The notes beneath the pieces were generated by a model that worked only from the letters and a program-made list of their open reading frames with translations, was not told the origin of the DNA and did no database searches. From assembly GCA_937899625.1 (NCBI GenBank), contig CALCCB010000111.1, positions 1-64,000 of the forward strand: DNA of 64,000 nucleotides. The letters run 5' to 3'. Source of the DNA: an uncultured Bacteroidota bacterium (GTDB lineage Bacteria; Bacteroidota; Bacteroidia; Flavobacteriales_D; Crocinitomicaceae). The translations under genes and the position numbers were made by a program. Each line of letters opens with the position of its first letter. The first letter of the stretch is position 1. Shown here in pieces: positions 9,981 to 44,778 of this stretch.

Positions 9981-11645
9981 ATGGAAAGATTATATCAAGC
10001 ATTTGCATTTAATGAAGCCGAACCGCTGATCTTTACTCAACTCGATTTCTGGCTGTTCTTTCTTGCTGTGATGATCATTTTTTCAATGATCCATAAAAAT
10101 TTCCTGGTTAGAAGTTTCTTTCTAACGGTGATTAGCTTGTTCTTTTATTTTAAAACTTCCGGTCTTTATGTGTTGTTACTCGGCTTAAGCCTTGTCGGCA
10201 ATTATCTCCTTGGAAATGCCATTTTTAAAAGTCGATCAGAAACAAGTAAAAAGTGGATCATCGCCGCTTCCAGCATTTTCAACTTGTCGATGCTCGGATA
10301 CTTTAAGTACGCTTACTTCTTTACTGATAGCTACAACAAAATGTTCCATACCGACTATCAGGTATTTAATCAACTTGCGGTTTGGGGGAACGGTTTCTTT
10401 GGCGAAGGCACCTTTGTTGAGCAGATCATCTTGCCAGTAGGAGTTTCGTTCTTTACATTCCAAAGTATCAGCTATGTTGTAGACATTTACAGGAAAGAAG
10501 TTGAACCTGTTAGAAATTTCTTCGATTATACCTTTTTCGTCACCTTCTTTCCACAACTGGTTGCAGGTCCGATCGTTAGAGCCCGAGACTTCATCCCTCA
10601 AATCAGACAACCATTTCAACTCGATAAAAATGATTTTTCATGGGCAATCATTCAGATCGTAAAAGGATTGATCAAGAAGATCGTATTAGCAGATTACATC
10701 GCCGTTCATTTCATTGACAAAGTTGCAGATGCACCTGAAGCCTATCCAGGTTTCGTAAGCGTTCTCGCCATGTGGGGTTATTCATTACAGATCTATGGTG
10801 ACTTCTCCGGGTATACAGATATTGCCATCGGAGTTTCGAGACTAATGGGTTTCAAACTACTTGAGAATTTCAATTCTCCGTACAAAGCGGTTAGTGTTGC
10901 TGACTTCTGGAGAAGGTGGCATAGATCATTGGGATCATGGTTAAGAGATTATCTGTACATCCCTCTTGGTGGAAACAAATCTGGAGGCATTGGCACCTAT
11001 GTAGCGACGCTTATAATTCTGATCTTTCTGGTGTTCATCACCCAATGGTATGAATTGATCTTTGTATACTTGGGTTTGATGACCATTTACATCATCGGAG
11101 TACTGATCATTCCAAACTTCAAGCAATATGTTCATCGCGACCTCAACCTTCTGATCACCATGGTTGTCGGTGGCTTATGGCATGGTGCAAGTGAAAACTT
11201 CGTGATTTGGGGAGCAATGAACGGCGCCGCACTTGTGATCTACAATTACTGGAAGAAATTTTCACCCTACGAGAATAAAGGAAACCTTTTTATTGTCCAT
11301 TTCTGGAAGATCTTCATCACGTTTAACTTTATTACGTTTACGAGAATCTGGTTCCGCTTGGAAGAAGATGGACAACCTCTGGTGATGCTAGATCAGATCT
11401 GGAACCATTTCAACTTCACATGGGATACATTTGTATTAGTGCTCTCAACGTACCAAAGTGTTTTCTGGGTAATGCTGGGTGGATACATTGTTCACTGGCT
11501 CCCACAAACAATTAAAGACAAATGGCAGGAATGGTTTACGAATACGCCTATGGTCCTTCAAGCCGTCAGTGTAGCGATCATTGTTGTTCTGATGTATCAA
11601 GCAGTTTCTGATACATTTAAACCCTTTGTATACTTCCAGTTTTAA
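9981..11645 (+). CDS. MBOAT family O-acyltransferase (AlgI-like)
   Basis: Polytopic inner-membrane acyltransferase expected to move an acyl group, usually acetyl, across the membrane to a periplasmic partner that modifies a polysaccharide. The 554-residue protein has about 11 hydrophobic segments, the MBOAT signature FWRRWHRSLGSWLRDYLYIP (about 310-329) and the catalytic histidine in GGLWHGAS (about residue 397). AlgI-type proteins are usually 460-520 residues, so it is slightly long. With two SGNH proteins just upstream it resembles the AlgI-AlgJ/X alginate acetylation arrangement, but there are no polymer synthesis genes beside it, so the acceptor is unknown. A bidirectional terminator follows. 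Confidence 0.93.
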   Translation: MERLYQAFAFNEAEPLIFTQLDFWLFFLAVMIIFSMIHKNFLVRSFFLTVISLFFYFKTSGLYVLLLGLSLVGNYLLGNAIFKSRSETSKKWIIAASSIFNLSMLGYFKYAYFFTDSYNKMFHTDYQVFNQLAVWGNGFFGEGTFVEQIILPVGVSFFTFQSISYVVDIYRKEVEPVRNFFDYTFFVTFFPQLVAGPIVRARDFIPQIRQPFQLDKNDFSWAIIQIVKGLIKKIVLADYIAVHFIDKVADAPEAYPGFVSVLAMWGYSLQIYGDFSGYTDIAIGVSRLMGFKLLENFNSPYKAVSVADFWRRWHRSLGSWLRDYLYIPLGGNKSGGIGTYVATLIILIFLVFITQWYELIFVYLGLMTIYIIGVLIIPNFKQYVHRDLNLLITMVVGGLWHGASENFVIWGAMNGAALVIYNYWKKFSPYENKGNLFIVHFWKIFITFNFITFTRIWFRLEEDGQPLVMLDQIWNHFNFTWDTFVLVLSTYQSVFWVMLGGYIVHWLPQTIKDKWQEWFTNTPMVLQAVSVAIIVVLMYQAVSDTFKPFVYFQF

Positions 11646-14309: not shown

Positions 14310-15298
14310 ACAAAAATGAATTCTTCCTGGTGATTTTCGATGTAATCAAGGGTTGAGAGTATTTCATCAAGATCAAAAGAACTCACCAATTTGGTCCTGA
14401 ACTCTTTGAAATGAGCTATTCCTTTGAAATAATTCGTGTAATGGCGTTTCATCTCAGCAATCCCAAGATTTTTTCCTTTCCACTCAATACTCATCATCAG
14501 ATGTTGCCTTGCTGCCTCTACCCGATCTTTAACATTCGGCGCGGATAAATGCTCACCTGTTGCCATGAAATGTTTGATCTCATTGAAAACCCACGGATAA
14601 CCAATACTTGCTCTACCGATCATGATTCCATCAACTCCATATCGAGCCCTGTATTCCACTGCCTTCTCAGGAGTATCTATATCACCATTTCCAAAAACTG
14701 GAATTCGCATACGTTGATTGTTCTTCACATCACCGATCAAGGTCCAGTCAGCATCACCTTTATACATTTGCTTACGTGTCCTTCCGTGAATCGATATTGC
14801 TTCAATACCGACATCTTGAAGTCTTTCAGCTGTTTCAACAATGTACTTTGTTTCGTCATCCCAGCCTAATCTCGTTTTAACTGTAACAGGAAGTTTAGTG
14901 GATTTAACGATCTCTTCGGTCATTCTGACCATCTTCGGAATATCCTGGAGGATACCGGCCCCTGCTCCTTTACATGCTACCTTTTTCACAGGACAGCCGT
15001 AATTGATGTCGATAATGTCCGGATTCGCCTTTTCAATGATCTCAGCAGCCATACGCATACTTTCGATCTCAGCTCCGAAAATCTGTATTCCAATTGGTCT
15101 CTCGTATTCGAAAATATCGAGCTTCTGAACACTTTTTGCAGCATCACGAATCAACCCTTCAGATGAAATAAATTCAGTAAACATCAGGTCTGCGCCATGT
15201 TTCTTGCATAAAGCACGAAAAGGTGGATCACTCACATCCTCCATCGGAGCAAGTATCAAAGGGAATTCCCCTAATTCAATATTCCTGATCTTTACCAC
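14306..15298 (-). CDS. dusB: tRNA dihydrouridine synthase DusB
   Basis: FMN- and NADPH-dependent reduction of uridine to dihydrouridine in the tRNA D-loop. The 330-residue TIM-barrel protein opens with the family motif APMEDVSDPPFR (about 16-27), has the catalytic Cys in DINYGCPVKKV (about residue 100), the phosphate-binding GNGDI and IGRASIGYPW, and a C-terminal helical domain for tRNA binding. Length is typical of DusB. It stands alone, divergent from the P-type ATPase gene. A TACCTTTG box lies only 5 bases upstream of the ATG, implying a very short or absent leader, or a start further in. Confidence 0.93.
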   Translation of the reverse strand: MVKIRNIELGEFPLILAPMEDVSDPPFRALCKKHGADLMFTEFISSEGLIRDAAKSVQKLDIFEYERPIGIQIFGAEIESMRMAAEIIEKANPDIIDINYGCPVKKVACKGAGAGILQDIPKMVRMTEEIVKSTKLPVTVKTRLGWDDETKYIVETAERLQDVGIEAISIHGRTRKQMYKGDADWTLIGDVKNNQRMRIPVFGNGDIDTPEKAVEYRARYGVDGIMIGRASIGYPWVFNEIKHFMATGEHLSAPNVKDRVEAARQHLMMSIEWKGKNLGIAEMKRHYTNYFKGIAHFKEFRTKLVSSFDLDEILSTLDYIENHQEEFIFV

Positions 15299-15302
15299 GG
15301 CA

Positions 15303-15310
15303 CAAAGGTA
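15303..15310 (-). promoter_or_regulatory. Bacteroidota-type -7 box (TACCTTTG) for dusB
   Basis: Matches TAnnTTTG on the minus strand. The predicted transcription start would fall at about the ATG, suggesting a leaderless or nearly leaderless mRNA. Confidence 0.4.
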
Positions 15311-15378
15311 AGGAGTTGTCGAGAGAAATACTATTTTAGTAACATCGGTTTATCTGATAATACGAATCTATATTATCC

Positions 15379-17835
15379 ATGATCTCAAGAAAAAATAACG
15401 GTCTAACAAGCGCAGAAGCACAAGAAAGACTTAAGAGATTCGGATACAATGAATTAACCGACAAAAAAAGCAATAGTATCTTCCAATTGATCATTGGCAT
15501 CTTCAAAGAACCAATGTTTATCCTCCTCCTTATCTGCGCGGGGCTGTACACTATTCTTGGTGATTACAAAGAGGGCATGATCCTTTTGTCTTCTACTGTG
15601 TTGATCATTTTTATCACAGTATATCAGCATCAAAAAACGGAGAAGGCCCTGGAGATGTTGCAAAAACTTTCCTCTCCCAGAGTGATCGTAAGAAGAGATG
15701 GGAAAGAGAGCAGAATCCCTGGCAGAGAAGTGGTTCCTGGAGATCTAATCCTATTGCATGAGGGAGATCGTATACCAGCGGATGCAGAATTATTCCTGAA
15801 CGACCAATTGGTAATTGACGAATCGGTCTTAACAGGTGAATCCGTAGCAGTTTCCAGAAGTGAAGGAAAGGTGTTTTCTGGAACATTGGTGGTACGCGGA
15901 AGTTCTGAAGCTATCGTGCTAAATACCGGAGAAAAAACGGAATTTGGAAAGATCGGAGAGTCACTCAAAGGTATTACTCAAGAACAGACAAGACTTCAGA
16001 AAGAAATGACAAGTCTGATAAAAAGGCTTTTTTTAATAGGAGGAGTAATCAGTATTCTTGTTGTTCTCACATTCTATCTGACAAGAGGAAACTTCTTACA
16101 GTCTCTTCTTAATGGGCTCGCTTCCTCCATGGCTATTTTGCCTGAAGAATTCCCCGTTGTTCTGACCGTTTTCCTTGCATTAGGAGCATGGAGAATGTCG
16201 AAGAAAAATGTACTAACACGAAAACCTTCGGCCATTGAAACACTGGGAGCGGCGACAGTTTTGTGCACTGATAAGACCGGCACCCTGACACAAAATAAAA
16301 TGAGGATCGTCAGGATCACTAATGGTGAAAGGTCTTTTCTAACGGAGGATTCTGACCCCATCAACACCAAAATCTTACAATATGGCGCACTGGCAAGCGA
16401 TCCTCGTTCTATTGACCCTATGGATGTCGCTTTTCAGGCATTTCAATCTGAATCATCAATGGAATTCATAAAAGAATTCCCTTTGTCCAAAGATCACTTG
16501 ATGATTACCCGAGTTTTCAAAAAAGAAGATCAATACCACATTTTTGTTAAAGGAGCTCCTGAAAGTGTGCTTAAATGCTGTCCTTCTGTTTCTGAAGAAT
16601 TGCACAATCAGCTGAATGAAAAGATCACTAAATATGCGGATAAGGGAATGAGGGTTCTTGCTATTGGAGGTTGTATCACATCAGATCTTCCTGAGCGTAT
16701 TGAAGACATTCAATTTAATTTTGAAGGTCTTGTCTCCTTTGAAGACCCAATCATGTCGGAAGTTCCTAAAGCAGTTGAAGAATGCAGAACTGCGGGAATA
16801 AGAGTTGTCATGATCACGGGAGATCATCCAGCAACAGCACTGAATATCGCAAGACAAATAGGAATTTCGGAACCTACTGTTCTTACAGGACAAGACCTCA
16901 ATAATATGTCCGAGGAACAATTGCAAAAAGACATTACATCGGTCACTGTATTTGCGCGAGTTATACCGGAACAAAAACTCAGGATCGTTAAAGCATTGCA
17001 ATCAAATAATGAAGTCGTAGTGATGACTGGAGATGGTGTCAATGATGCTCCTGCTCTGAAAGCAGCTGATATCGGAATTGCAATGGGTATGAAAGGTACT
17101 GATGTCGCTCGAGAAGCTGCCTCATTAGTTCTTTTAGATGATAATTTCTCGAGTATTGTAGCGGCAATCAAAAGTGGACGAAAGATCTTTGATAACCTAC
17201 AAAAGGCAATGTCTTACATTATCGCTGTTCATATCCCGATCATAGGTCTTGTTTTGACACCAGCTTTTTTCCCAGAAATGCCATTGATCTTACTTCCGAT
17301 TCATATTATTTTCATGGAATTGATCATAGACCCTATTTGTTCAATTGCTTTTGAAGCGGAAGAAGAAGAAAAAGGTATTATGCAAAGACCACCTCGAAAC
17401 CCTTCGCATTCTTTCTTTAGCAATCAGCGGATTTTGAGAAGCGTTGGATCAGGACTTTTTCTATTTGTAATAGTGATGATCGTTCATTATGTTTCTAGTT
17501 TGGAGGGTCATACCGAGGATGAGATTAGAGCGATTAGTTTTACAACATTGATCATCGGTAATATCTTTTTGATCATCAGTTATCTTTCTCAGACAAGAAG
17601 TATTTTCCACATATTTACTGAAAGAAATCCAGTACTTCTAATCATCCTAAGCGTGTCCAGTCTCGTTCTCTTTGTAACAATAAGTGTTCAAAGTGTGCAA
17701 CATCTTTTTAAATTCCATAATCCCGGATATTCTCATTTCCTGATATCAATTGGTCTATCCGCTTTAATGCTTATCATTCTGGAATTTGTAAAAATTATTC
17801 GATTGAAAAAATTACAGAAACAAAATGTGGTTTGA
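15379..17835 (+). CDS. cation-transporting P-type ATPase (P2, calcium-pump-like)
   Basis: ATP-driven cation pump in the inner membrane. The 818-residue protein has an actuator domain with LTGES (about 152), the membrane motif MAILPEEFP in the helix before the phosphorylation domain, the phosphorylated Asp in CTDKTGTLTQNK (about 306), the nucleotide-binding KGAPESVLKCC, the hinge MTGDGVNDAPALK (about 550) and six C-terminal membrane segments. PEEFP replaces the PEGLP usual in calcium and H/K pumps, so the ion is uncertain. It overlaps the CaCA antiporter gene by 11 bases, which supports calcium as the shared ion. Confidence 0.9.
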   Translation: MISRKNNGLTSAEAQERLKRFGYNELTDKKSNSIFQLIIGIFKEPMFILLLICAGLYTILGDYKEGMILLSSTVLIIFITVYQHQKTEKALEMLQKLSSPRVIVRRDGKESRIPGREVVPGDLILLHEGDRIPADAELFLNDQLVIDESVLTGESVAVSRSEGKVFSGTLVVRGSSEAIVLNTGEKTEFGKIGESLKGITQEQTRLQKEMTSLIKRLFLIGGVISILVVLTFYLTRGNFLQSLLNGLASSMAILPEEFPVVLTVFLALGAWRMSKKNVLTRKPSAIETLGAATVLCTDKTGTLTQNKMRIVRITNGERSFLTEDSDPINTKILQYGALASDPRSIDPMDVAFQAFQSESSMEFIKEFPLSKDHLMITRVFKKEDQYHIFVKGAPESVLKCCPSVSEELHNQLNEKITKYADKGMRVLAIGGCITSDLPERIEDIQFNFEGLVSFEDPIMSEVPKAVEECRTAGIRVVMITGDHPATALNIARQIGISEPTVLTGQDLNNMSEEQLQKDITSVTVFARVIPEQKLRIVKALQSNNEVVVMTGDGVNDAPALKAADIGIAMGMKGTDVAREAASLVLLDDNFSSIVAAIKSGRKIFDNLQKAMSYIIAVHIPIIGLVLTPAFFPEMPLILLPIHIIFMELIIDPICSIAFEAEEEEKGIMQRPPRNPSHSFFSNQRILRSVGSGLFLFVIVMIVHYVSSLEGHTEDEIRAISFTTLIIGNIFLIISYLSQTRSIFHIFTERNPVLLIILSVSSLVLFVTISVQSVQHLFKFHNPGYSHFLISIGLSALMLIILEFVKIIRLKKLQKQNVV

Positions 17836-18820
17836 TGTTCTAGGATTTCTGGTTTGTGCGGTCATCATTTTTTTCTCTGGAAAAAAGTTGTCTTTCTATG
17901 GGGATCAGATCGCAGAGGTCACAGGTATGGGTAAAGCCTGGGTCGGATTGATCCTAATGGCTGCAGTTACATCTCTTCCTGAAATGATGGTTGGGATCAG
18001 TTCCTCTATGGTTCTTGAATCAGCAGATCTTGCTGTTGGAGATATTATCGGTAGTTGTGCATTTAACCTTGGAATTCTCACCTTAATGGATCTATTTACG
18101 CCAAAGGATAAACCATTGTTCCAGAATGTCTCTCAAAGCCACATCCTGGCGGCTTCATTCGGAATAATTCTAATCGGAATGGCAGGATTAGGTATTTATC
18201 TAAATGAGAATTTTGTGCTTATCCCTTCCATTGGATTGTTTGCGCTTTCTTTTGCTGTCGTCTATTTAATCTCGGTGCGGACCATATATCGATATCAGAA
18301 AGTTCATCCTCAAATCCAACCTGTATCAACAACAACCTCTCATCTTTCATTGAAAAAGATCATTTTGATGTATTGCATTTTTGCATTGATCATTATCGTC
18401 ACTGCATTTGCGCTTCCCCATTTTGCGGAAGGAATTGCACAAAAAACAGGGTTGGGTCAAACGTTTGTCGGAACCTTGTTCCTGGCCATAAGTACTTCAC
18501 TTCCAGAGATTGCTGTTTCATTGGCTGCAGTGCGCATAGGATCAACGGACATGGCAGTTGGTAACCTACTCGGAAGTAATTTATTCAATCCTTTCATTCT
18601 TTTTCTCGACGACATTTTTTATACCAAAGGATATCTTTTAAAAGATGCATCTGATTCGCATATCGTATCTATTTTCTTCGTGATACTTATGTCATGTGTT
18701 GCCATCATTGGTGTAATGTTTCCACAAAAGGAAAAAAAGATCTTCATGGCGGCTGACACACTCGTGATCTTCATTTTCTATACGATAAACATGATCATAC
18801 TTTATCAACTATCCCGTTAG
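17825..18820 (+). CDS. calcium/cation antiporter of the CaCA family
   Basis: Inner-membrane exchanger expected to move calcium against sodium or protons. The 331-residue protein has about ten hydrophobic segments and the two inverted alpha repeats of the family: TSLPEMMVG with AVGDIIGSCAFN in the first, and TSLPEIAVS with AVGNLLGSNLFN in the second. The second repeat has the canonical GN and GSN residues; the first has GD and GSC instead. It starts inside the end of the P-type ATPase gene, so the pair is co-transcribed and probably coupled in translation. Together they look like a two-mode calcium extrusion unit. Confidence 0.88.
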   Translation: MWFDVLGFLVCAVIIFFSGKKLSFYGDQIAEVTGMGKAWVGLILMAAVTSLPEMMVGISSSMVLESADLAVGDIIGSCAFNLGILTLMDLFTPKDKPLFQNVSQSHILAASFGIILIGMAGLGIYLNENFVLIPSIGLFALSFAVVYLISVRTIYRYQKVHPQIQPVSTTTSHLSLKKIILMYCIFALIIIVTAFALPHFAEGIAQKTGLGQTFVGTLFLAISTSLPEIAVSLAAVRIGSTDMAVGNLLGSNLFNPFILFLDDIFYTKGYLLKDASDSHIVSIFFVILMSCVAIIGVMFPQKEKKIFMAADTLVIFIFYTINMIILYQLSR

Positions 18821-18870
18821 ATCGATAAAATTGTTCTTGAGAACCGAATAAATTCTTCATTTTTGTATTC

Positions 18871-19656
18871 ATGGAAGAAAGGCACAATAACAGAGAATTG
18901 TACTTCAAGGAACAACACACGACCTTGAACAAATACATCCTTCCCTATATTGAGAAATTCAAACCAATTACTGAAAACACTCAAGTTCTTGAAGTGGGCT
19001 GTGGCTATGGCGGAAACCTGAAGCCTTTCATGGATAAAGGTTGTTTTATTACCGGAGTAGATATTCGAGAGAAAAGTATTGAAGACGCAAAAAGGCTCCT
19101 GGATATTGATTCTCATCCAAAACTAACACTTATTGCTTCAGACATTTACGACGTTAAAGATTTCGATCAAAAATTCGACATCATCTTTATGAAAGATACA
19201 CTGGAACATATTCCGAATCAGGAGAAATTTGTTCCACTTCTTAAAACTTTTTTAAAGGACGATGGAGTTATCTTTCAGGGATTTCCGCCTTGGTGTAACC
19301 CGTTCGGAGGTCATCAGCAAATGTGCGAAGGAAAGATCCTGAGCAAATTACCTTGGTTTCATGTTACTCCAAGACCTGTATTCAAAGCCATTTTAAAATT
19401 ATTTGGAGAAAAAGAATCAACCGTAAACGGATTATTAACTGATGTTTACGATACACGAATTTCGATCTTTAGATTTAAAAAGATCGTTCGTAAAAGTGGT
19501 TTGGAGATCTTGGATGAAAATTTATTTTTCATCAACCCCAATTATGAAGTGAAGTTTAAATTGAAGCCGAGAAAATTATTACCTGTCTTTAATATTCCTT
19601 TCCTGAGAGAATTTTACACTACCACGGCGTATTATATCCTCAGAAAAAAACAATGA
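18871..19656 (+). CDS. class I SAM-dependent methyltransferase
   Basis: Cytoplasmic methyltransferase of 261 residues with the Rossmann motif I VLEVGCGYGG (about 38-47), the acidic end of strand two in GVDIREKS, motif II-like LIASDIYDV and motif post-I DIIFMKDTLEHI. The C-terminal third (from about residue 160) has no known catalytic motif. The ATGA junction with the next gene, a GT-C-like membrane protein, shows tight coupling. The pairing suggests methylation of a lipid- or polysaccharide-linked sugar, but that is inference from position only. The substrate is unknown. Confidence 0.85.
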   Translation: MEERHNNRELYFKEQHTTLNKYILPYIEKFKPITENTQVLEVGCGYGGNLKPFMDKGCFITGVDIREKSIEDAKRLLDIDSHPKLTLIASDIYDVKDFDQKFDIIFMKDTLEHIPNQEKFVPLLKTFLKDDGVIFQGFPPWCNPFGGHQQMCEGKILSKLPWFHVTPRPVFKAILKLFGEKESTVNGLLTDVYDTRISIFRFKKIVRKSGLEILDENLFFINPNYEVKFKLKPRKLLPVFNIPFLREFYTTTAYYILRKKQ

Positions 19657-21020
19657 GGATCCAAAACAAAATAGATTCTCCTAAATTGTTTATCCTCATT
19701 ACTGGATTGGTAATGACACTGGTCTCAAATAACTTCAACTGGACCAAAGAAAGCTGGAAACACATCCTGGAAGCAGATGCCAAAGGATACTACGCATACC
19801 TTCCAGCAACTTTTATCTATCATGATCTGAATTTTGGATTCTTTGACGAGATCGAAAAAGAAAAATATTACAACCCGAATACTTATTACGATTATAGATC
19901 AGGATCCAATAATAAGGTGATCAATAAATATTATGCGGGAACGGCCTTGGCTGAATTACCTTTTTTCTTAGTGGCACATCTTTACGCAACTGTTACGGAT
20001 TCTGTGGCTGACGGATTTTCAAAACCGTATATGGTTTCGGTCAGTGTTGCAGCATTGTTCTATTTCCTTTCAGGATTGCTGCTGTTAAATCGTATTCTTG
20101 AAATGTACTCTATTTCAAAATGGAATAGAGTCTGGGTGATCGTAGCATGTACATTTGGCACCAACTTATTTTACTATGTTGTCAGTGAACCTGGGCTTTC
20201 CCATGTTTTCAGCTTTTCCTTTTTTACAGCCTTTATTTACACAGCAAAACGGTACTTCCTGTCCGGCGATCTGAGGTGGCTTTTGTTCCTGAGCTTGACT
20301 ACTGGAATGATCGTATTGATCAGACCCGTTAATGGATTGATCCTCTTCTCACTCCCATTCATTGCTGGAGACTATAAAACCCTTAAGGAGGATCTTGTTT
20401 TACGGCTTACAAAAGAGCCTTTTAAAATGTTACTGATCATGGTTACCGGATCGTTGATCGTATTCCTCCAATTAATTATCTACAAGGTATCAACTGGAAA
20501 TTACATCGTCTATTCATATGGTGAAGAAGGATTCGATTTCCTACATCCCCATTTGATTGATATCCTGTTCAGCTATAAAAAGGGGCTATTTCTATACACA
20601 CCTATTTACCTTGTTTCCTTGTTTGGTCTCTACAAATTATGGAAGGACACAACGTTTACAGCAACATCACTCTTTCTTTTCTTATTCGTTACGACCTATG
20701 TATTTTCCTCTTGGTGGATGTGGTATTATGGAGGTAGTTTTTCATCCAGAGTGTTTGTCGAATTCCTCCCTTTCTTTATGATCCCTCTTGGTATCTTACT
20801 CGAATCGAGACTGAGAAAAAAATTGATTATTCCATTGATCGTTGTCCTAACAATTGTGTGTCAGATCCAGATATTTCAATACAGGTATTATGAGATCCAT
20901 TGGTCAGAAATGACGAAAGAAAAATACTGGAATGTGTTCTTGAGAGTTGACAGGCTGATCTATAAGGAAACTAATCCTGTTCCTCCAGTTGAAGGATCAG
21001 AGACCAGCTCCCCTCAATAA
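19653..21020 (+). CDS. polytopic membrane protein, GT-C/glycosyltransferase-39-like
   Basis: 455 residues with about ten hydrophobic segments. After the first there is an acidic loop with LEADAKGYYAYLPA, resembling the D/E-containing first loop of GT-C enzymes that use polyprenyl-phosphate sugars. No other catalytic motif was recognised, so a role in transferring a sugar outside the inner membrane is only likely. The start overlaps the methyltransferase stop (ATGA). Its final 24 bases overlap the 3' end of the giant adhesin gene on the opposite strand. Polyprenyl-phosphate-mannose made by the synthase at 55458-56168 would be one possible donor. Confidence 0.6.
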   Translation: MRIQNKIDSPKLFILITGLVMTLVSNNFNWTKESWKHILEADAKGYYAYLPATFIYHDLNFGFFDEIEKEKYYNPNTYYDYRSGSNNKVINKYYAGTALAELPFFLVAHLYATVTDSVADGFSKPYMVSVSVAALFYFLSGLLLLNRILEMYSISKWNRVWVIVACTFGTNLFYYVVSEPGLSHVFSFSFFTAFIYTAKRYFLSGDLRWLLFLSLTTGMIVLIRPVNGLILFSLPFIAGDYKTLKEDLVLRLTKEPFKMLLIMVTGSLIVFLQLIIYKVSTGNYIVYSYGEEGFDFLHPHLIDILFSYKKGLFLYTPIYLVSLFGLYKLWKDTTFTATSLFLFLFVTTYVFSSWWMWYYGGSFSSRVFVEFLPFFMIPLGILLESRLRKKLIIPLIVVLTIVCQIQIFQYRYYEIHWSEMTKEKYWNVFLRVDRLIYKETNPVPPVEGSETSSPQ

Positions 21021-24000
21021 GGAAACGTGACCAACAAATTCTTCTTTACGGTCGGTGTTGATATTCATCACCTTCAATTTCCACGTATAAACTCCTTCCT
21101 GGCATTTTGTGCCTTTATAGGTTCCATCCCAACCTTCTCCAGCTACCGTTGAATTAAAGATCAATTCTCCCCATCTGTTGAAGATCATCAATTCATAATT
21201 TCTAGGGTCGTATCCTGAAGAAAGGATCGGCACGAATTCGTTGTTATATGCGTCACCGTCAGGAGTGAATGTATTTGGCACGTACAATATCAGCTCCTCT
21301 GTCATATTGATGTACGCATTCGTTGAATCTATACATCCGAAATCCGATATAGCATACAACCATACCTCAAAGGACTCTTGACCTGTCGCTGTAGGGAATT
21401 GGTGATACGGTTCCTCTTGATAATTCAATGGCGTTCCATCTCCAAAATTCCAGATGAAATTAGAAGCGCCAGTAGAGCTGTTGTAGAAATAAGTATCAGG
21501 ATCCGTTGTATACAACTCGTACGACTCGGCCGTGAATGAAGCAACAGGATCCGGAGCTACACAAAGGAATTCTGTGATCGCAATAGTATCTCTACATCCT
21601 TGACTATTCGATACGATCAATTGCATGTCAAGACAAACAGTTTGATCAAAATTGAAGATGATTGGTCCACAGTCATAAATAGTAGTTCCGTCAGAGAAGG
21701 TCCATTCACAGTTTGAACCAGTTGATGCATTGGCATCAATTACAATCTCACTTCCAATACACCCGACAACAGAATTTGGAATATCGAAAAGAGGAGTTGA
21801 TTCCGCCCACATGTTCACCATTGTAGTGTCTGTACATCCATTCGCATCCGTTACTGTAGCTGTCCAGATTCCTTCCATGAACTGATCAAAGTAACCGGTG
21901 TTCACGGGAGGAATAGTATTCCATGCCACTGAATATCCAGCCGTACCACCACTATAGGTGGCCTCTGCAATTCCGTCATTGTTACCTAAACAACTAATAG
22001 GTGCGCCGAAATAATTCGAAATGATCTCAGATTGGGCAACCAATGGAGTTGGTTCAGTAACTGTTACAGTAGATGTTGCATCACAACCATTCACGTCCGT
22101 AACCTGAACATTGTAGATTCCTGCACCCACAGATGTTATTAAGGACTGTGTAGTTCCAATTACACCAGTAGCATCTGACCATGAATACTGATATCCTGGA
22201 GTACCTCCCACCGGGTCAGCCTGCACACTTCCATCTTCATATTGGAAACAAGATACATCTGCTCCATTGTAATCAGAAATAACTTGAGAAGAAACGATCA
22301 ATTCATCCGGCTCAGTAACCGTAACATTCGCAAGGCTGATACAACCATTTGCATCGGTAACAGTAACTTCATAATCTCCCGCTACCAATCCATTTGGACT
22401 TTGGGCATTGCTGATCACTATTCCGTTTTCATCTCTCCAGGTATATGTATATGCTGGAGTTCCTCCAACCAAATCAACCGTAATTGCGCCATCAGTCGAT
22501 CCGAAACAACTTACGTCGGCTCCATTGTAATCCGAGGTAACATAACTATCCAGAACCAGAACCGGTGGATCAGAAAGTGTCACATCAAATGTTGCCGTAC
22601 AACCTTCTAAGTCCGTTGCCGTCACTGTATAAGTTCCTGCGGGAACATTTGTTAGATTAGCTCCATTCCCTACCACGATTCCATTGATGTCGGTCCATTG
22701 ATACGTATATGGACCAGTTCCTCCTGAGGCATTTCCATTCGCGCTACCATCATTGGCCCCTGGACAAGATATATCTGCGCCATTGTAATTCGAAGTGACC
22801 GTTCCTAAAACAGATACAACAATTGGCTGAGTCAAAGTAATATCCTGAATGATCTGACAACCATTAAGATCAGTAACTATCAATGAATATGTACCTGCTG
22901 CCAGGTTACTCAAATCTTCGATAACCTCTCCATTTGGCGACCAGGCATATGAATATCCAGGGCTTCCTCCGGAAATAGTTGCGTCTATTGTTCCGTCGTC
23001 ATCACAAGCAGACAAATTAAATCCACCTGAATATACAGAAGGCGTCAAACTTAGATCCAACGCTGTCGGCTGAACCAACGTGATAGATGTAGTTTGCTGA
23101 CAACCATTAATATCTGTTAAAGTAACCTGGTAAGTACCCGTTGTTAATCCGGTTTGATCTTCATTGCCTGGAACTAATCCTGTACCATTAATAGTTGTCC
23201 AGCTGTAGGTGTAACCCGGTGAACCACCTGCCGGCACATAATCGATTGATCCATCATTAAATCCGAAACAAGAGATGTTATCCCCGCTTGGGAATGTACC
23301 AGCCGTAATCGATTGATTCAAAGGCGCAGGCTCAATGAGCGTAGCTGAAGAAGTTATCGTACAGCCGTTAACGTCAGTTACTGTCACCGTATATGTGCCA
23401 GCTGTTAAACCAGAAATATCCTGATTACTCGAACCATTTGACCACAAATAATTATAGGTTGGTGATCCACCTCCGATGGTTAGATCAATACTTCCATCAC
23501 TGAACCCATTACAGCTAATATTATCTCCACTAGGATAAGTAAATGGTGTATTGGATTGTGTTAATGCGACTGGTTCAACAAGCGTAATTGAAGTCGTGAC
23601 CTGACAACCATTAAGATCTGTGATGATCACTGAGTAGGTTCCAGCAGGAGCGCCACTTATATCTTCCGTTACTGCTCCATTAGACCATGCATATGAGTAA
23701 CCAGGGCTACCTCCAGACACCGATAAATTCACACTTCCATCGGAAAGACCAAAGCAACTGATGTTATCTCCACTTGGATAAGTCCCAGGTACGTTCGATT
23801 GAGTCAAGAGCGTCGGCTCAATTAATGTGGCAGAGGCTGAAATTGTACAACCATTAATATCCGTTGCTATGACATTGTATGTACCAGCTGGCACTCCTCC
23901 AATATCCTCTGATGTGGCCCCATTAGACCATGAATACGTATATTCTGGACTTCCGCTTCCGATCGTAAGATCAATACTTCCGTCACTAAATCCAAAACAA

Positions 24001-27000
24001 GAGATATTATCGCCACTCGGATAAGTAAATGCAGCTGTTGACTGTGTAAGTGCCGTCGGCTGTGTCAATGTAATCGACGATACGATCTGACATCCGTTAT
24101 CATCTGTAATGGTTACATTATAAGTGCCTGCAGGCACATTCGAAAGATCTTCTGTAGTACCTCCATTGGACCATAAGAAAGTATAAGGAGGAGCACCTCC
24201 TATTGGAGATAAGTCTACCGTACCATCACTTGCTCCAAAGCAACTAATATTATTTCCACTTGGGAAAGTCGGTGATGAAACCGTTTGACTCAAACCACTA
24301 GGCGAAGTCAAAGTAATCGTATTTGTTGTCGTACAACCGTTGTTATCTGTGATCGTTACGATGTATGTACCTGCAAGAAGATTAGAAATATCCTCTGTAT
24401 TAGCACCATTAGACCACACATATGAGTAATTCGAAATCCCACCATTTACAGTAAGATCAACCCATCCGTCTGGAGCACATCCCGAAAGGTTAAACCCACC
24501 TGGGTAAATTGAAGGAATAACTGAAGAGGTTAATAATGTCGGCTCGGTCAATGTAACAGTTAATGTGGTTGCGCAGCCTCCTGTCGAGCCGTTGGCATCA
24601 TTAATTGTTACTGTGTATGATCCGGCAGGAACTCCCGAAATATCTTGTGTCGTTGCACCGGTTGACCACGAGTACGTATATGCCGGTGTACCACCTGCTG
24701 GTGTGATATCAACTGATCCGGTAGCATCCCCAAAACAAAGAATGTCAACCTGAGTAGAAGTTACACTTACAGGAGCCAATGGTTGTACAATAGTAAAACT
24801 GGTCGTTGCCGTACATCCTCCCGTACTACCATTCGCATCACTCACAACAACACTGTACGTTCCTGCAGCCACACCAGAAAGATCCTGTGTTGTCGCTCCA
24901 TTCGACCATAGATAAGAATAAGCAGGTGTTCCTCCTGATGGAGTAATATCAATTGATCCATTGGATCCCCCAAAACAAAGTACATCAATCTGGGTTCCAG
25001 TCACTGTAAGAGGAGCTAAAGGCTCAACAACAATCACCGTTGTTGACGCTGTACACCCACCATTAGTACCATTCGCATCATTAACTACAACGGTATATGT
25101 TCCAGCCGGTAATCCAGAAATATCCTGAGTTGTCGCACCATTTGACCACAAATAGGAATATCCTGGGGTACCTCCCGCTGGGGTAAGATCAACTGATCCG
25201 GTTGTTCCTCCAAAACACAATACATCCACTTGTGTCGTAGAAACGGTAACAGGTGCTGCCGGTTGCGCTATTGTGAATGAAGCTAAAGCTGTACAACCTC
25301 CAGTTGTTCCACTGGCATCATTGACAGTCACAGTATAAGTTCCTGCAATCAAACCTGAAACATCCTGAGTAGTTGCTCCATTTGACCATGAATAAGTATA
25401 TCCCGGAGTTCCTCCGGCAGGTGTAATATCAATCGATGCATTGGACCCACCAAAACACAAAACTTCAACTTGAGTTCCTGATACAGTAACAGGTGCTATT
25501 GGCTGAGTTATCGTTACGCTTAACGCAGAGGCACAACCTCCTCCTGCCCCAGAAGCATCATTCACGGTAACAGAGTAGGTTCCAGCTAATAATCCTGAAA
25601 TGTCTTGAGTTGTAGCTCCGTTTGACCATAAATATGTATATCCTGGAGTACCACCGGTAGCAGATAGATCAATTGATCCTGTTGCTCCACCAAAACAAAG
25701 AATATTCACTTGAGTTGAGGATAATGTAACTGGAGCAAGAGGTTCTGTGATCGTAACACTTACCGTAGAACTGCATCCACCTGAACTTCCATTGGCATCA
25801 TTAACTATCACTGTGAATGTACCGGCAGTTAAGCCTGAAATATCCTCAGTAGTGGCACCATTCGACCAAGAGTATGTATATCCTGGAGTTCCCCCTGCAG
25901 GCGTAATATTAATTGCTCCGTCTGAACCTCCAAAACATGAGACATTGGTTTGAGTAAATGTGATCGAAACCGGTGCAAGAGGTTCAGTAATAGTTACGGA
26001 TGTTGAAGCAGTGCAACCCGCTGTTGTACCATTTGCATCATTAACAGTAACCGTGTATGTTCCCGCTATTAATCCTGATACGTCCTGAGTAGTCGCCCCA
26101 TTTGACCATGAGTAAGTATAGCTTGGAGTTCCGCCTGATGGAGTTAGATCCACAGATCCAGTACTTCCTCCAAAACATACAACATTAACCTGGGTAAACG
26201 ATAGGGTTACTGGGGTAGGTTGAGCTATTGAAGCTGTCGTTGAGGCAGTACAGCCGTTTACATCTGTTACTGTAACTGTATATGATCCGACTGCCAAGCC
26301 ACTAATATCTTCAGTGACAGCACCAGTAGACCATGAATAGGTTGAAGTGGCATAGGCAGGTGCTCCTGGTGAAACAGTTAAATTTATTGAACCATTAGTC
26401 AAACCATTACAAGAAATGTCCGTTGGAATTGCATTTAATGTTGATGTGAACTGAGTTAAGTTGATCACTACCTGATTTGCCGTGTTAGGACATCCTCCCG
26501 TGTTTGTAGGAGTTAAAGTAAGTGTTACTGAACCAGCTGCAATTTCAGCTGCTGTAGGAATATAGCTTAGGGAAAGATCATTTACATTATCTGTATATGT
26601 TCCATTTCCTCCACTCCAGATTCCACTGTTTGTACCAGAAACAGTACCGTTCAGTAAAACTGTAGGAGCAGGAGTACCACAAACCGCCTGATCCGGTCCA
26701 GGATCCGCGACAATGTCGACGAAAAACTCGGTCACGATCACTGAACCTGTTGCAGTCGGACACCCAGTTGCATCACTGATCACACAAGTATAAGTACCAG
26801 CGATCATTGCTGTAATATTGTCCGTGGCAGAGTTACTTACGTTAGTTTGAGAAAATCCACCGGGACCGGTCCACGTATAAGTATAAGGAGCTGTTCCACC
26901 TATAGCACCCATTGTGACTGTTGCACCTGTAACGGTTCCATTACATATAGCTACACTCGGGCCAGGATCTACGAATAAAGTCGGGAAGATCGAGACCGAA

Positions 27001-27752
27001 GCCGTGTCACAGAATGATGCTGCACTACAAGCACCTAGCACTGTACCACATACCTGATAAGCTATGGTTGGTGGATATCCAGGCTGTGGAGTGACCAAAA
27101 CGGTTGTTAGATCCTGATCATATAGAACACCACTGGTTCCCTGTTGACCACCCGTTAAATTTGAAAGGTAATTGTTGTAATAGTTAACCGGTTGACCATT
27201 TTGAGGAATCGAACTCCAGGTTACTGAAGCAGGATTCAATCCAAAAACACTTAACGTATCCTGACACCCATCCGCAGTAAGAATGTCACCCGAAGAGCTC
27301 GGTGCAGGGATTGAAGCAATCGAGTAACAGTTTTCATTATTCCCGGGCTTACAAAAGGTAATAACAAACGGTCCGGTTCCCGATAAACATAAAGGCGTCC
27401 CGACAGAAGTTAAAGGTCCACAATCAACTTGGTAAAATAAGGACCCCGACGGTGACGCTCCACATCCGTCTGGAACTGAGAATAAGATTCCTTCTGCTCC
27501 AGGATCAAGAGTTACGTTAAACTGAACACAGTTATTATCCCCTCCAGGGTTACAACAAGCCCCACCTCTTTGTTCCGGATTACTTGTCCATGTTCCACCT
27601 GGATTACCCGTTAAGTCTACTTCGAAAGTAGGCGTTCCTCCACCGCAATTCAACGTATCATTAAGTGTTACGGGCTCTAGAGATTGAGCAAATACACCCT
27701 GAAAGATCAGAATAAACAAGAGAAGGGAAGTATGGATATACCTTAGAACCAT
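20997..27752 (-). CDS. giant SprB-repeat surface adhesin with gliding-associated C-terminal domain
   Basis: Secreted cell-surface protein of 2251 residues. Order: signal peptide (1-22, ending GVFA), an N-terminal region rich in Cys pairs (about 25-260), an Ig-like repeat with GGTAPYTYTWTGPGG, about 19 SprB-type repeats of 72-85 residues with a GGTPxYTYxWSNG core, a PKD-like segment (NFIWNFGDGT) and a C-terminal CHU_C/type B sorting domain (YVPNTFTPDGDAYNNEF, IFNRWGELIF). Such proteins are exported by the type IX system with PorP/SprF-like partners; none is beside it here. Likely roles are gliding on surfaces or adhesion. It is a single-gene unit with a hairpin in its leader. Confidence 0.92.
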   Translation of the reverse strand: MVLRYIHTSLLLFILIFQGVFAQSLEPVTLNDTLNCGGGTPTFEVDLTGNPGGTWTSNPEQRGGACCNPGGDNNCVQFNVTLDPGAEGILFSVPDGCGASPSGSLFYQVDCGPLTSVGTPLCLSGTGPFVITFCKPGNNENCYSIASIPAPSSSGDILTADGCQDTLSVFGLNPASVTWSSIPQNGQPVNYYNNYLSNLTGGQQGTSGVLYDQDLTTVLVTPQPGYPPTIAYQVCGTVLGACSAASFCDTASVSIFPTLFVDPGPSVAICNGTVTGATVTMGAIGGTAPYTYTWTGPGGFSQTNVSNSATDNITAMIAGTYTCVISDATGCPTATGSVIVTEFFVDIVADPGPDQAVCGTPAPTVLLNGTVSGTNSGIWSGGNGTYTDNVNDLSLSYIPTAAEIAAGSVTLTLTPTNTGGCPNTANQVVINLTQFTSTLNAIPTDISCNGLTNGSINLTVSPGAPAYATSTYSWSTGAVTEDISGLAVGSYTVTVTDVNGCTASTTASIAQPTPVTLSFTQVNVVCFGGSTGSVDLTPSGGTPSYTYSWSNGATTQDVSGLIAGTYTVTVNDANGTTAGCTASTSVTITEPLAPVSITFTQTNVSCFGGSDGAINITPAGGTPGYTYSWSNGATTEDISGLTAGTFTVIVNDANGSSGGCSSTVSVTITEPLAPVTLSSTQVNILCFGGATGSIDLSATGGTPGYTYLWSNGATTQDISGLLAGTYSVTVNDASGAGGGCASALSVTITQPIAPVTVSGTQVEVLCFGGSNASIDITPAGGTPGYTYSWSNGATTQDVSGLIAGTYTVTVNDASGTTGGCTALASFTIAQPAAPVTVSTTQVDVLCFGGTTGSVDLTPAGGTPGYSYLWSNGATTQDISGLPAGTYTVVVNDANGTNGGCTASTTVIVVEPLAPLTVTGTQIDVLCFGGSNGSIDITPSGGTPAYSYLWSNGATTQDLSGVAAGTYSVVVSDANGSTGGCTATTSFTIVQPLAPVSVTSTQVDILCFGDATGSVDITPAGGTPAYTYSWSTGATTQDISGVPAGSYTVTINDANGSTGGCATTLTVTLTEPTLLTSSVIPSIYPGGFNLSGCAPDGWVDLTVNGGISNYSYVWSNGANTEDISNLLAGTYIVTITDNNGCTTTNTITLTSPSGLSQTVSSPTFPSGNNISCFGASDGTVDLSPIGGAPPYTFLWSNGGTTEDLSNVPAGTYNVTITDDNGCQIVSSITLTQPTALTQSTAAFTYPSGDNISCFGFSDGSIDLTIGSGSPEYTYSWSNGATSEDIGGVPAGTYNVIATDINGCTISASATLIEPTLLTQSNVPGTYPSGDNISCFGLSDGSVNLSVSGGSPGYSYAWSNGAVTEDISGAPAGTYSVIITDLNGCQVTTSITLVEPVALTQSNTPFTYPSGDNISCNGFSDGSIDLTIGGGSPTYNYLWSNGSSNQDISGLTAGTYTVTVTDVNGCTITSSATLIEPAPLNQSITAGTFPSGDNISCFGFNDGSIDYVPAGGSPGYTYSWTTINGTGLVPGNEDQTGLTTGTYQVTLTDINGCQQTTSITLVQPTALDLSLTPSVYSGGFNLSACDDDGTIDATISGGSPGYSYAWSPNGEVIEDLSNLAAGTYSLIVTDLNGCQIIQDITLTQPIVVSVLGTVTSNYNGADISCPGANDGSANGNASGGTGPYTYQWTDINGIVVGNGANLTNVPAGTYTVTATDLEGCTATFDVTLSDPPVLVLDSYVTSDYNGADVSCFGSTDGAITVDLVGGTPAYTYTWRDENGIVISNAQSPNGLVAGDYEVTVTDANGCISLANVTVTEPDELIVSSQVISDYNGADVSCFQYEDGSVQADPVGGTPGYQYSWSDATGVIGTTQSLITSVGAGIYNVQVTDVNGCDATSTVTVTEPTPLVAQSEIISNYFGAPISCLGNNDGIAEATYSGGTAGYSVAWNTIPPVNTGYFDQFMEGIWTATVTDANGCTDTTMVNMWAESTPLFDIPNSVVGCIGSEIVIDANASTGSNCEWTFSDGTTIYDCGPIIFNFDQTVCLDMQLIVSNSQGCRDTIAITEFLCVAPDPVASFTAESYELYTTDPDTYFYNSSTGASNFIWNFGDGTPLNYQEEPYHQFPTATGQESFEVWLYAISDFGCIDSTNAYINMTEELILYVPNTFTPDGDAYNNEFVPILSSGYDPRNYELMIFNRWGELIFNSTVAGEGWDGTYKGTKCQEGVYTWKLKVMNINTDRKEEFVGHVSLLRGAGL
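21790..26450 (-). repeat. about 19 tandem SprB-type repeats inside the adhesin gene
   Basis: Units recur about every 230-260 bases. Three blocks differ by their linkers: nearest the N-terminus, linkers like STQVDVLCFGG plus an extra GGC (about 24.7-26.2 kb); in the middle, YPSGDNISCFG (about 23.2-24.3 kb); nearest the C-terminus, DYNGADVSCFG (about 22.0-22.8 kb). Two Cys-containing units with GGFNLS linkers (near 24.48 and 23.02 kb) mark block borders. Confidence 0.85.
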
Positions 27753-27759
27753 TTAGTAG

Positions 27760-27793
27760 TTTCTCGTTCCGGTTGTTGTAAGTAAACGAGAAA
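27760..27793. repeat. inverted repeat in the leader of the adhesin gene
   Basis: TTTCTCGTT and AACGAGAAA are perfect 9-base arms with a 16-base loop, starting 8 bases upstream of the adhesin ATG. With a two-base bulge the pairing extends to AGT/ACT. It could be a leader hairpin or an operator. Confidence 0.5.
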
Positions 27794-27887
27794 AACTAAG
27801 TAAGGTTGTCTTTTTTATATAAATCCTGAATTACTGTAGACGAACTCTTGATTATCGTCTATTAAACATAAGCTGCATAAGATCTGA

Positions 27888-28457
27888 TTATTTTTTCACG
27901 TATTGTGTGAGAATGTAAATGCTTTGTCCATTTACTTTTCCTTCGATCTGTTCCTCATTGTCATGAACCAATCTTATATTTCTAACGGCCGTACCTCTTT
28001 TTGCAGTAAAGCCACCGCCTTTCACATCCAGATCTTTAATCAGAACAACACTATCTCCATTTTCTAATACAGCACCATTGCTATCGATATGAATGATTTT
28101 CTCGTCATCTGAAAGTCCAATACCCGTAGATTTGGCCCAATTGAGTTCTTCATCAGAAAGATACATTGTTTCAATCAGGTCTTTCGCCCACTGATCTTCG
28201 ATTTGATGAAGCATTCTCCAACTCAGTACTTTGACACCAGGAACCTCACTCCAGATACTTTCATTCAGACATCGCCAATGGTTCACATCCAAACTTTTTA
28301 CCCCATTGATTTGATCCAAGCATGTCGCACATATTGCAGGTATTTCGTCTTGTGGCGAATTAATTCCGGGTTCAACAAAATATTCTTTTAACTCCGACTG
28401 GTTTGAACATATTTCACAATGTCCAGCCGCTCTTTCTGAAGCCAGCTTAAGAGACAT
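27888..28457 (-). CDS. PhnA/YjdM family zinc-ribbon protein
   Basis: 189 residues. The N-terminal half has two Cys pairs typical of a zinc ribbon (CEIC at about 14 and CATC at about 43); the C-terminal 75 residues are the conserved PhnA/YjdM domain (LENGDSVVLIKDLDVKGG, KRGTAVRNIRLV). Longer than the 111-residue E. coli protein, as is common in Bacteroidota. Despite the old name, the family has no proven role in phosphonate breakdown. Its ATG overlaps the thioredoxin-like gene's stop (TAATG), so it is the last gene of the murA unit. Confidence 0.88.
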   Translation of the reverse strand: MSLKLASERAAGHCEICSNQSELKEYFVEPGINSPQDEIPAICATCLDQINGVKSLDVNHWRCLNESIWSEVPGVKVLSWRMLHQIEDQWAKDLIETMYLSDEELNWAKSTGIGLSDDEKIIHIDSNGAVLENGDSVVLIKDLDVKGGGFTAKRGTAVRNIRLVHDNEEQIEGKVNGQSIYILTQYVKK

Positions 28458-44586: not shown

Positions 44587-44778
44587 TTTATAGATTTGTT
44601 TAGCGACCACAATTTACACAAAAAAGAATTCAGCTCCATTAATTTTCGACGATATTAATGAATCTAAAGACCAATGAGTTGAATTTGAAAACCTACCTCA
44701 TTTATCAGTGATTTCTTTCACTTAACCTTTTGATTTTCCACTTATAAAAATGAAATTAGGTTCACTTTGCTTATTCCT

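Follow-up and report, generated by a model that had tools for sequence, protein, structure and literature searches.

The gene described here occupies positions 20997–27752 on the minus strand of a 64,000-nucleotide stretch (the window) of contig CALCCB010000111.1 (GenBank assembly GCA_937899625.1), from an uncultured bacterium of the Crocinitomicaceae (Bacteroidota). Its product is probably a long cell-surface stalk protein of the known SprB-repeat type, with 19 immunoglobulin (Ig)-like beads in three sorted groups. The repeat array is ancient and frozen, and the number and order of its units have remained unchanged, under purifying selection, since three species split.

Domain Organization of the SprB-Repeat Protein

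The gene and the parts of its product were located as follows:

20997..27752, minus strand: SprB-repeat surface protein gene of the type IX secretion system (T9SS), type B; whole open reading frame with stop codon, 2,251 amino acids (aa)
27684..27752, minus strand: N-terminal hydrophobic segment, aa 1–23, probable Sec signal peptide (judged by eye, without a predictor)
26967..27683, minus strand: cysteine-rich N-terminal head, aa 24–262, with no Pfam match listed in the stretch
26448..26966, minus strand: two divergent domains, aa 263–435, the first Ig/SprB-like (weak sub-threshold Ig_2 and SprB matches at aa 269–339)
26220..26447, minus strand: leading repeat unit U0, aa 436–511
24540..26219, minus strand: block a, seven 80-aa units of the STQVDVLCFGG type, aa 512–1071
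24300..24539, minus strand: border unit B1 (GGFNLS), aa 1072–1151
23067..24299, minus strand: block b, five units (81–87 aa) of the YPSGDNISCFG type, aa 1152–1562
22824..23066, minus strand: border unit B2 (GGFNLS), aa 1563–1643
21801..22823, minus strand: block c, four units (83–86 aa) of the DYNGADVSCFG type, aa 1644–1984
21282..21800, minus strand: pre-tail region, aa 1985–2157, conserved with the locus 2 paralogue
21012..21281, minus strand: T9SS type B C-terminal sorting domain (CTD), aa 2158–2247 (PF13585, TIGR04131)

In the Pfam scan, SprB (PF13573) matched 19 stretches of the protein with 619.8 bits (cut-off 28), and segmentation of the array gave the same number of units: U0, a1–a7, B1, b1–b5, B2, and c1–c4, among which b5 (87 aa) carried an insert. 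A preliminary description, made from the letters of the window, had counted about 19 SprB repeats; this count held, and its three linker types and both GGFNLS borders were all present as stated. In addition, a unit-model scan gave a weak twentieth match ahead of the 19 units. The tail was matched by PF13585 (CHU_C; aa 2158–2243, 50.9 bits, cut-off 27) and TIGR04131 (NCBIfam; aa 2158–2247, 47.6 bits, cut-off 35). A type A tail (TIGR04183/PF18962) was rejected: the whole-protein cut-offs were passed, but no stretch passed alone, and the best stretch was a repeat (aa 1114–1143). SprB repeats can trigger a spurious type A call, and automatic annotation may mislabel such proteins. Across the whole genome, a 2.9-megabase draft, at least 127 SprB-repeat matches at E 0.001 were found on 27 contigs, with 150 of 236 candidates scored.

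All 19 units contained exactly two Cys residues in the same alignment columns, the first Cys of the borders being shifted by one column. When the relatives were included, two Cys were present in each of the 221 units of at least 70 aa (221 of 222 units were counted, the other being shorter). Each bead is probably closed by one disulfide between these two invariant residues. The Gly-Gly-Cys of block a, which had been read as an added Cys able to form an extra disulfide, proved to be the ordinary second Cys behind a four-residue insert, and an extra disulfide in this block was ruled out by the Cys counts. Furthermore, a model of the tri-unit a7-B1-b1 (55 rows) had a predicted local distance difference test score (pLDDT) of 95.7 and was all-beta, with the strand pattern three times over.

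Structural Relatives of the Bead

A search of the PDB with a single sequence gave no matches at 0.01. With a profile of the 55 tri-unit rows, grappling hook protein A (GhpA) from Aureispira was detected at E 6.8e-20, and the phage Hoc protein came next at 1.4e-7. Foldseek also ranked a GhpA fragment first. In VIA-align, GhpA reached a Z of 11.2 and a root-mean-square deviation (rmsd) of 4.0 over 216 residues, followed by Hoc (Z 10.0, rmsd 5.9) and other Ig chains (Z up to 9.6). The Ig-like beads of GhpA (Aureispira sp. CCB-QB1; PDB 9flp, 9flw, and others) are detectably homologous to the window repeats, and this homology gives the latter a structurally solved relative. The similarity shows a shared bead, not a shared function.

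According to a review (PMC11205867), grappling hooks are heptamers of a T9SS-secreted protein and attach to prey flagella. Such secreted, flagella-binding hooks, together with the first rank of GhpA among solved structures by profile, Foldseek, and VIA-align, would agree with a window protein that holds prey cells as GhpA does. However, the heptameric hooks are built from a chain of 5,898 aa, a specific match of its head or base with the window protein is not shown, and what the two proteins share is a common type of Ig-like bead, which also brings Hoc and other Ig chains close to GhpA in Z. The data seen gave no sign of oligomerisation or of a hook-shaped head, and a role as a capture hook is extremely unlikely.

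Block Structure of the Array

For the 16 units of blocks a, b, and c, the mean amino acid identity was 0.615 within blocks and 0.435 between blocks, and the mean DNA identity was 0.622 and 0.511, respectively. The difference was matched by 0 of 10,000 label shuffles for amino acids and by 0 of 10,000 for DNA. In the protein tree of the 19 units, block a (support 76/33) and block c (96/95) each formed one branch, while the b units, both borders, and U0 clustered together (82/90); block b alone was one branch in 1% of 200 bootstrap trees. The blocks are real, and the cleanest wording is three groups, with the borders counted in the middle one. A repeat tree without grouping by block, the outcome named beforehand as speaking against the block scheme, was not seen for a and c; block b did not stand as its own branch and mixed with the borders.

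A wider tree comprised 159 of 222 units over 85 columns, with the units of genomes G014 and G005 omitted. The a units of the window and of other species formed one clade (Shimodaira–Hasegawa-like approximate likelihood ratio test, SH-aLRT, 97), as did the border units of the included species (SH-aLRT 98). Moreover, c4 (99) and c2 (87) grouped by position across species, and so did c3 (95), excluding G010 and G022.

Block classing covered 13 proteins, with units below 40 bits excluded. The patterns used assigned some true a, b, border, and c units to class 'o', and an early unit of G022 and another of G010 fell into class 'c'; G009 and G021, with 34 domains each, were counted and left out of classing. 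Four c units preceded the tail in 13 of 13 classed proteins (the last unit of three was placed with c4 by the 159-unit tree), and block c is therefore regarded as a shared old set. The borders separated the blocks in the window gene, as had been described, but they also occurred within the b region of relatives (G002, G003, and others), so a function as separators only was ruled out. Shorter arrays were present in G008, with two units plus four c units, and in Flavobacteriales bacterium UBA2104 (L074), with six units. Judged from these arrangements, blocks a and b look like old growth amid a fixed frame, which runs from the head and U0 to a border, four c units, and the CTD.

Age and Stability of the Array

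The similarity of adjacent units was compared with that of other units over all orderings of each block. The amino acid identities of adjacent and other units were 0.681 and 0.677 in block a, 0.617 and 0.601 in block b, and 0.434 and 0.376 in block c, and these differences were reached by 2250 of 5040, 42 of 120, and 4 of 24 orderings, respectively. On DNA, the corresponding counts were 1510/5040 (a), 98/120 (b), and 8/24 (c). A similarity gradient between neighbours within blocks was absent on both protein and DNA. A weak two-unit rhythm in block b, first spotted by eye (lag-2 excess reached by 4/120 orderings on DNA and 12/120 on protein), is a hint only.

The within-block median proportions of synonymous differences (pS) were 0.70 (a), 0.79 (b), and 0.65 (c). 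These values were near saturation, indicating that the duplications are old. The top DNA identity between any two window units was 71%.

Orthologues were found at the same place in G014 and G012, and both aligned gap-free over all 2,251 aa from a matching start codon. The synonymous divergence (dS) between the window gene and these orthologues was 0.205 and 0.273, and the ratio of nonsynonymous to synonymous divergence (dN/dS) was 0.072 and 0.086. In the same two comparisons, the dS values of flanking genes were 0.24 and 0.30 for murA, 0.26 and 0.33 for purL, 0.35 and 0.08 for DUF4290, 0.54 and 0.65 for tlpA, and 0.43 and 0.57 for phnA; the flanking genes were named via Pfam, and murA, purL, tlpA, and dusB are interpretations of those families. 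The dS of the window gene was near that of murA and purL and below that of tlpA and phnA. Furthermore, all 19 window units paired with the same-numbered G012 unit in the 159-unit tree, not with their own neighbours. An assembly artefact was ruled out by the presence of the same units, gap-free, in the assemblies of two other species, and by the DNA identity of at most 71% between units.

Recent local amplification was visible in paralogous genes at a second site (locus 2, see below), not in the window gene. In locus 2 of G003, b units 10–12 shared 91–94% DNA identity (L039 8114–15379). In locus 2 of the window genome, the identity was 90% between unit 3 and unit 1, which the contig end truncates, and 89% between two 'GFGVSC' units in the 5' half.

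The preliminary description had proposed three separately amplified blocks that arose by stepwise local duplication. The grouping of units by block agrees with it; the missing neighbour gradient, the near-saturated pS, the gap-free orthologues, the shared c set, and the borders found within block b of relatives do not. In its recent form, with neighbours copied stepwise and unit number still variable, this explanation could also draw on the near-identical units of the paralogous arrays (91–94% in G003 and 90% in locus 2 of the window genome) and on the weak rhythm of block b. For the window gene, however, recent growth is contradicted by the neighbour and pS tests and by the gap-free orthologues: no indel separates the three species, four c units stand before the tail in every classed protein, and no two units exceed 71% DNA identity. 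Recent stepwise growth is thus quite improbable, and an ancient form of stepwise duplication is still conceivable. Gene conversion within each block, rather than common descent, could likewise keep units alike, and it would yield block-wise similarity without a neighbour gradient, as observed. It is, however, very improbable, given that each window unit groups with its same-numbered counterpart in G012 and that, with pS near saturation, recent conversion is not visible.

Probable Origin by Duplication and Genomic Site

In 13 genomes of the genus, including the window's own, the flanking genes identified a locus 2 SprB gene. Ribonucleotide reductase genes, a DAO-type oxidoreductase, and a PF06491 protein stood on one side, and TspO and an esterase-like gene on the other. 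In G002, G005, G009, and G021, the open frames of locus 2 spanned 3,438–3,450 aa, and each contained 34 unit-model domains; in G002 and G005, the two that were classed, 33 units exceeded 40 bits. The copy of the window genome was split across contigs C46 and C75, each of which breaks off within the array, and it starts with a distinct 'GFGVSC' unit type (L113 6546–9800). Contig C224 of G014 was rejected as a locus 2, as it had no locus 2 flanking gene and grouped elsewhere in both N-terminal trees. Locus 2 shares with the window gene (locus 1) the border, b, and c unit types and the way the array closes, with a border followed by four c units and the CTD, as well as block a in G002, G003, G005, and G022. 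It differs from the window gene in its genomic site, in having up to 33 units, and, in G002, in its N-terminal head.

In a tree of the 3' region (last 690 aa), locus 2 of the same three species was the sister group of the window gene and its two orthologues (100/99), and a smaller C-terminal tree gave the same grouping at 89/96. When eight locus 2 proteins (the same three species and five others), a group picked after the smaller tree was known, were forced into a clade without locus 1, the arrangement was rejected by the approximately unbiased test (p-AU 0.0007). Because its 3' region is closest to locus 2 of the same three species, the window gene either arose in this lineage as a copy of locus 2 or had its 3' part converted by locus 2. 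In the genomes read, the block types a, border, and c are older than this duplication.

The junction between phnA and dusB (window 15298–27888) is a variable site in the genus. Both genes were found together in 7 of 15 stretches of relatives that were read, and none of these seven had an SprB gene between them. The phnA and dusB matches were 14 bases apart in G017 and G001, and other genes lay between them in G003, G013, G010, G008, and G024, including a PemK-type toxin gene, a type A sorting-tail protein, an AAA/DUF4143 protein, and desaturases (G008, with similar open reading frames in G024). Among the relatives whose junction was read, the SprB gene was present in three species only, and it appears to have been inserted between phnA and dusB in this lineage. 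Two genes accompany it:

18871-19656, plus strand: methyltransferase gene, co-inserted neighbour
19653-21020, plus strand: gene for a 455-aa protein that belongs to no Pfam family and looks membrane-like; convergent to the SprB gene with a 24-base overlap

The methyltransferase and the 455-aa protein were near-identical and adjoined the SprB gene in both syntenic orthologues. The genes for a P-type cation ATPase and a Na/Ca exchanger (window 15379–18820) were absent in G012, which keeps the methyltransferase, the 455-aa protein, and the SprB gene. In G010 (L150, about 11080–11430), a broken head-like fragment, with an end resembling a type B tail by eye in another frame, stood directly before a methyltransferase homologue (51%). 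This fragment appears to be the remains of a surface-protein gene, and the arrangement in G010 suggests that the association of methyltransferase and SprB gene may predate the insertion. In G022 and G020, the contig ended beside the methyltransferase homologue.

Proposed Secretion, Anchoring, and Role

In the proposed mechanism, a Sec signal would bring the chain to the periplasm and SprA would export it, and a PorP/SprF-like shuttle encoded elsewhere would receive the CTD and anchor the protein at the outer membrane. The 19 Ig-like beads, each probably with one disulfide, would form an extended stalk that keeps the cysteine-rich head at a distance from the cell. The most likely role would be static adhesion, with a surface, a polymer, or a cell as the target; that the head binds is what we infer. 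Export by SprA is a well-founded prediction from the type B tail and the presence of SprA in the window genome (2431 bits, cut-off 200). As for the shuttle, type B substrates are described in PMC12618676 as being received by PorP/SprF-like shuttles.

The PorP/SprF family (TIGR03519) had 19 matches in the genome, 17 of them over the cut-off; one 56-aa N-terminal fragment without a tail was included. The C-x-C motif was found in 0 of 18 PorP/SprF frames (17 over the cut-off and one below) in this draft, which is 94.6% complete; 16 had a readable tail, that of L171 being cut by a contig end and L168 ending in an extra domain. Two PorP/SprF-like frames, L163 4000–4968 and L165 3964–4926, had a tail Cys pair 10 and 12 residues apart and ended in SCPSF or SCPLF. 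L163 (G000:C125, PF11751) had no type B gene within about 4 kb, and it is a candidate shuttle for the window protein.

The model for a gliding role is the gliding adhesin SprB of Flavobacterium johnsoniae, which has SprB repeats (by family name) and a T9SS type B tail in common with the window protein. With 6,497 aa, as given in PMC9870892, it is about three times as long, and the two are likened by family and description, not by sequence. According to PMC12635249, the C-x-C tail of F. johnsoniae SprF links SprF to GldK and is required for gliding. The window protein could similarly ride on an SprF-like carrier, disulfide-linked to GldK, and move along the gliding track. The shared repeat family and CTD class point in this direction, as do SprA and GldJ in the window genome (GldJ 490.8 bits with neighbours, cut-off 458.2; 0 of 14 control genomes above it). 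Furthermore, F. johnsoniae has three orphan type B substrates (Fjoh_1123, Fjoh_1720, and Fjoh_4934), which carry a type B CTD and, like the window gene, have no linked porP/sprF gene. According to PMC12618676, these substrates share one orphan shuttle, Fjoh_1677, which was identified by experiment, and all three substrates are placed with the gliding machinery; the window gene is likened to them by description, not by sequence. L163 would be the comparable gene here, with its tail Cys pair and no type B gene nearby. In contrast to F. johnsoniae SprB, however, the window gene has no adjacent sprF-like gene, which, given these orphans, only lowers the odds. Nor did C-x-C, the motif needed for gliding in F. 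johnsoniae SprF, occur in the 18 carrier frames, 16 of them with a readable tail; both tail Cys pairs that were found are spaced 10 and 12 residues apart. A gliding adhesin therefore seems rather unlikely, and static anchoring, to judge from the genes present, fits better.

Several observations weigh against the account given here of a static adhesin that arose by duplication of locus 2 and kept its units in place. None of the 19 PorP/SprF matches of the genome lay on the window contig (C111), which leaves the gene without an adjacent sprF-like partner. The head has no known family and a poor model, so the word 'adhesin' is itself interpretive: the AlphaFold model of aa 24–435 had a pLDDT of 63.4, with the two divergent domains (aa 263–435) as its best part, and the Foldseek list, in which Ig-like and cadherin chains predominated and GhpA fragments ranked near the top, came from a model too poor to interpret. 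In a tree of aa 24–262, the locus 1 heads grouped with G008 and G017 (95/95), not with locus 2 of their own genome. Because this disagrees with the 3'-region tree, a simple single duplication needs later divergence or replacement of the head. Identity between the window gene and locus 2 of its own genome rose from 25% in the head to 72% in U0. After duplication, one of the two heads would have diverged fast or been replaced, with long branches obscuring the direction. In addition, gene conversion between the loci may partly underlie the 3'-region tree. In the 159-unit tree, block b was not a single group, and window b5 fell with locus 2 b units of the same species (99), away from b1–b4. Block c1 was split there, window c1 falling with third c units of G010 and G022 (92), although in four relatives the units with the highest plain identity to it were c1 units. 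Finally, a different 1,063-aa type B gene with weak repeats stood directly after phnA in G016 (L139 6401–11211), with a PorP-like open reading frame behind it by eye, and a Dus gene was not found in this phnA stretch. Because this gene adjoins phnA, the phnA side can hold such genes elsewhere.

It is tempting, if speculative and on balance doubtful, to see in stalk length and bead order a ruler under selection: once a giant surface protein has been copied to a new site, the head and middle blocks would be exchanged or diverge between the copies, whereas each copy would long retain its exact bead number and its closing set of border, four c units, and tail. If this were true, the lineage would offer a natural test of whether selection acts on how long a T9SS surface filament is as well as on its tip. 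Instability is commonly presumed for surface proteins rich in repeats, and the 19-unit array described here has stayed the same in three species. The same genome holds this stable array and a paralogue with near-identical, recently copied units. That contrast, together with the block grammar and a duplication that can be placed, makes a clean system for what fixes T9SS stalk length. No published account of the block structure of this gene family was found among open-licence PMC papers.

Another T9SS product is encoded in the same window at 41746–44610, namely an M14 carboxypeptidase that combines MAM-like and PKD domains with a type A T9SS tail.

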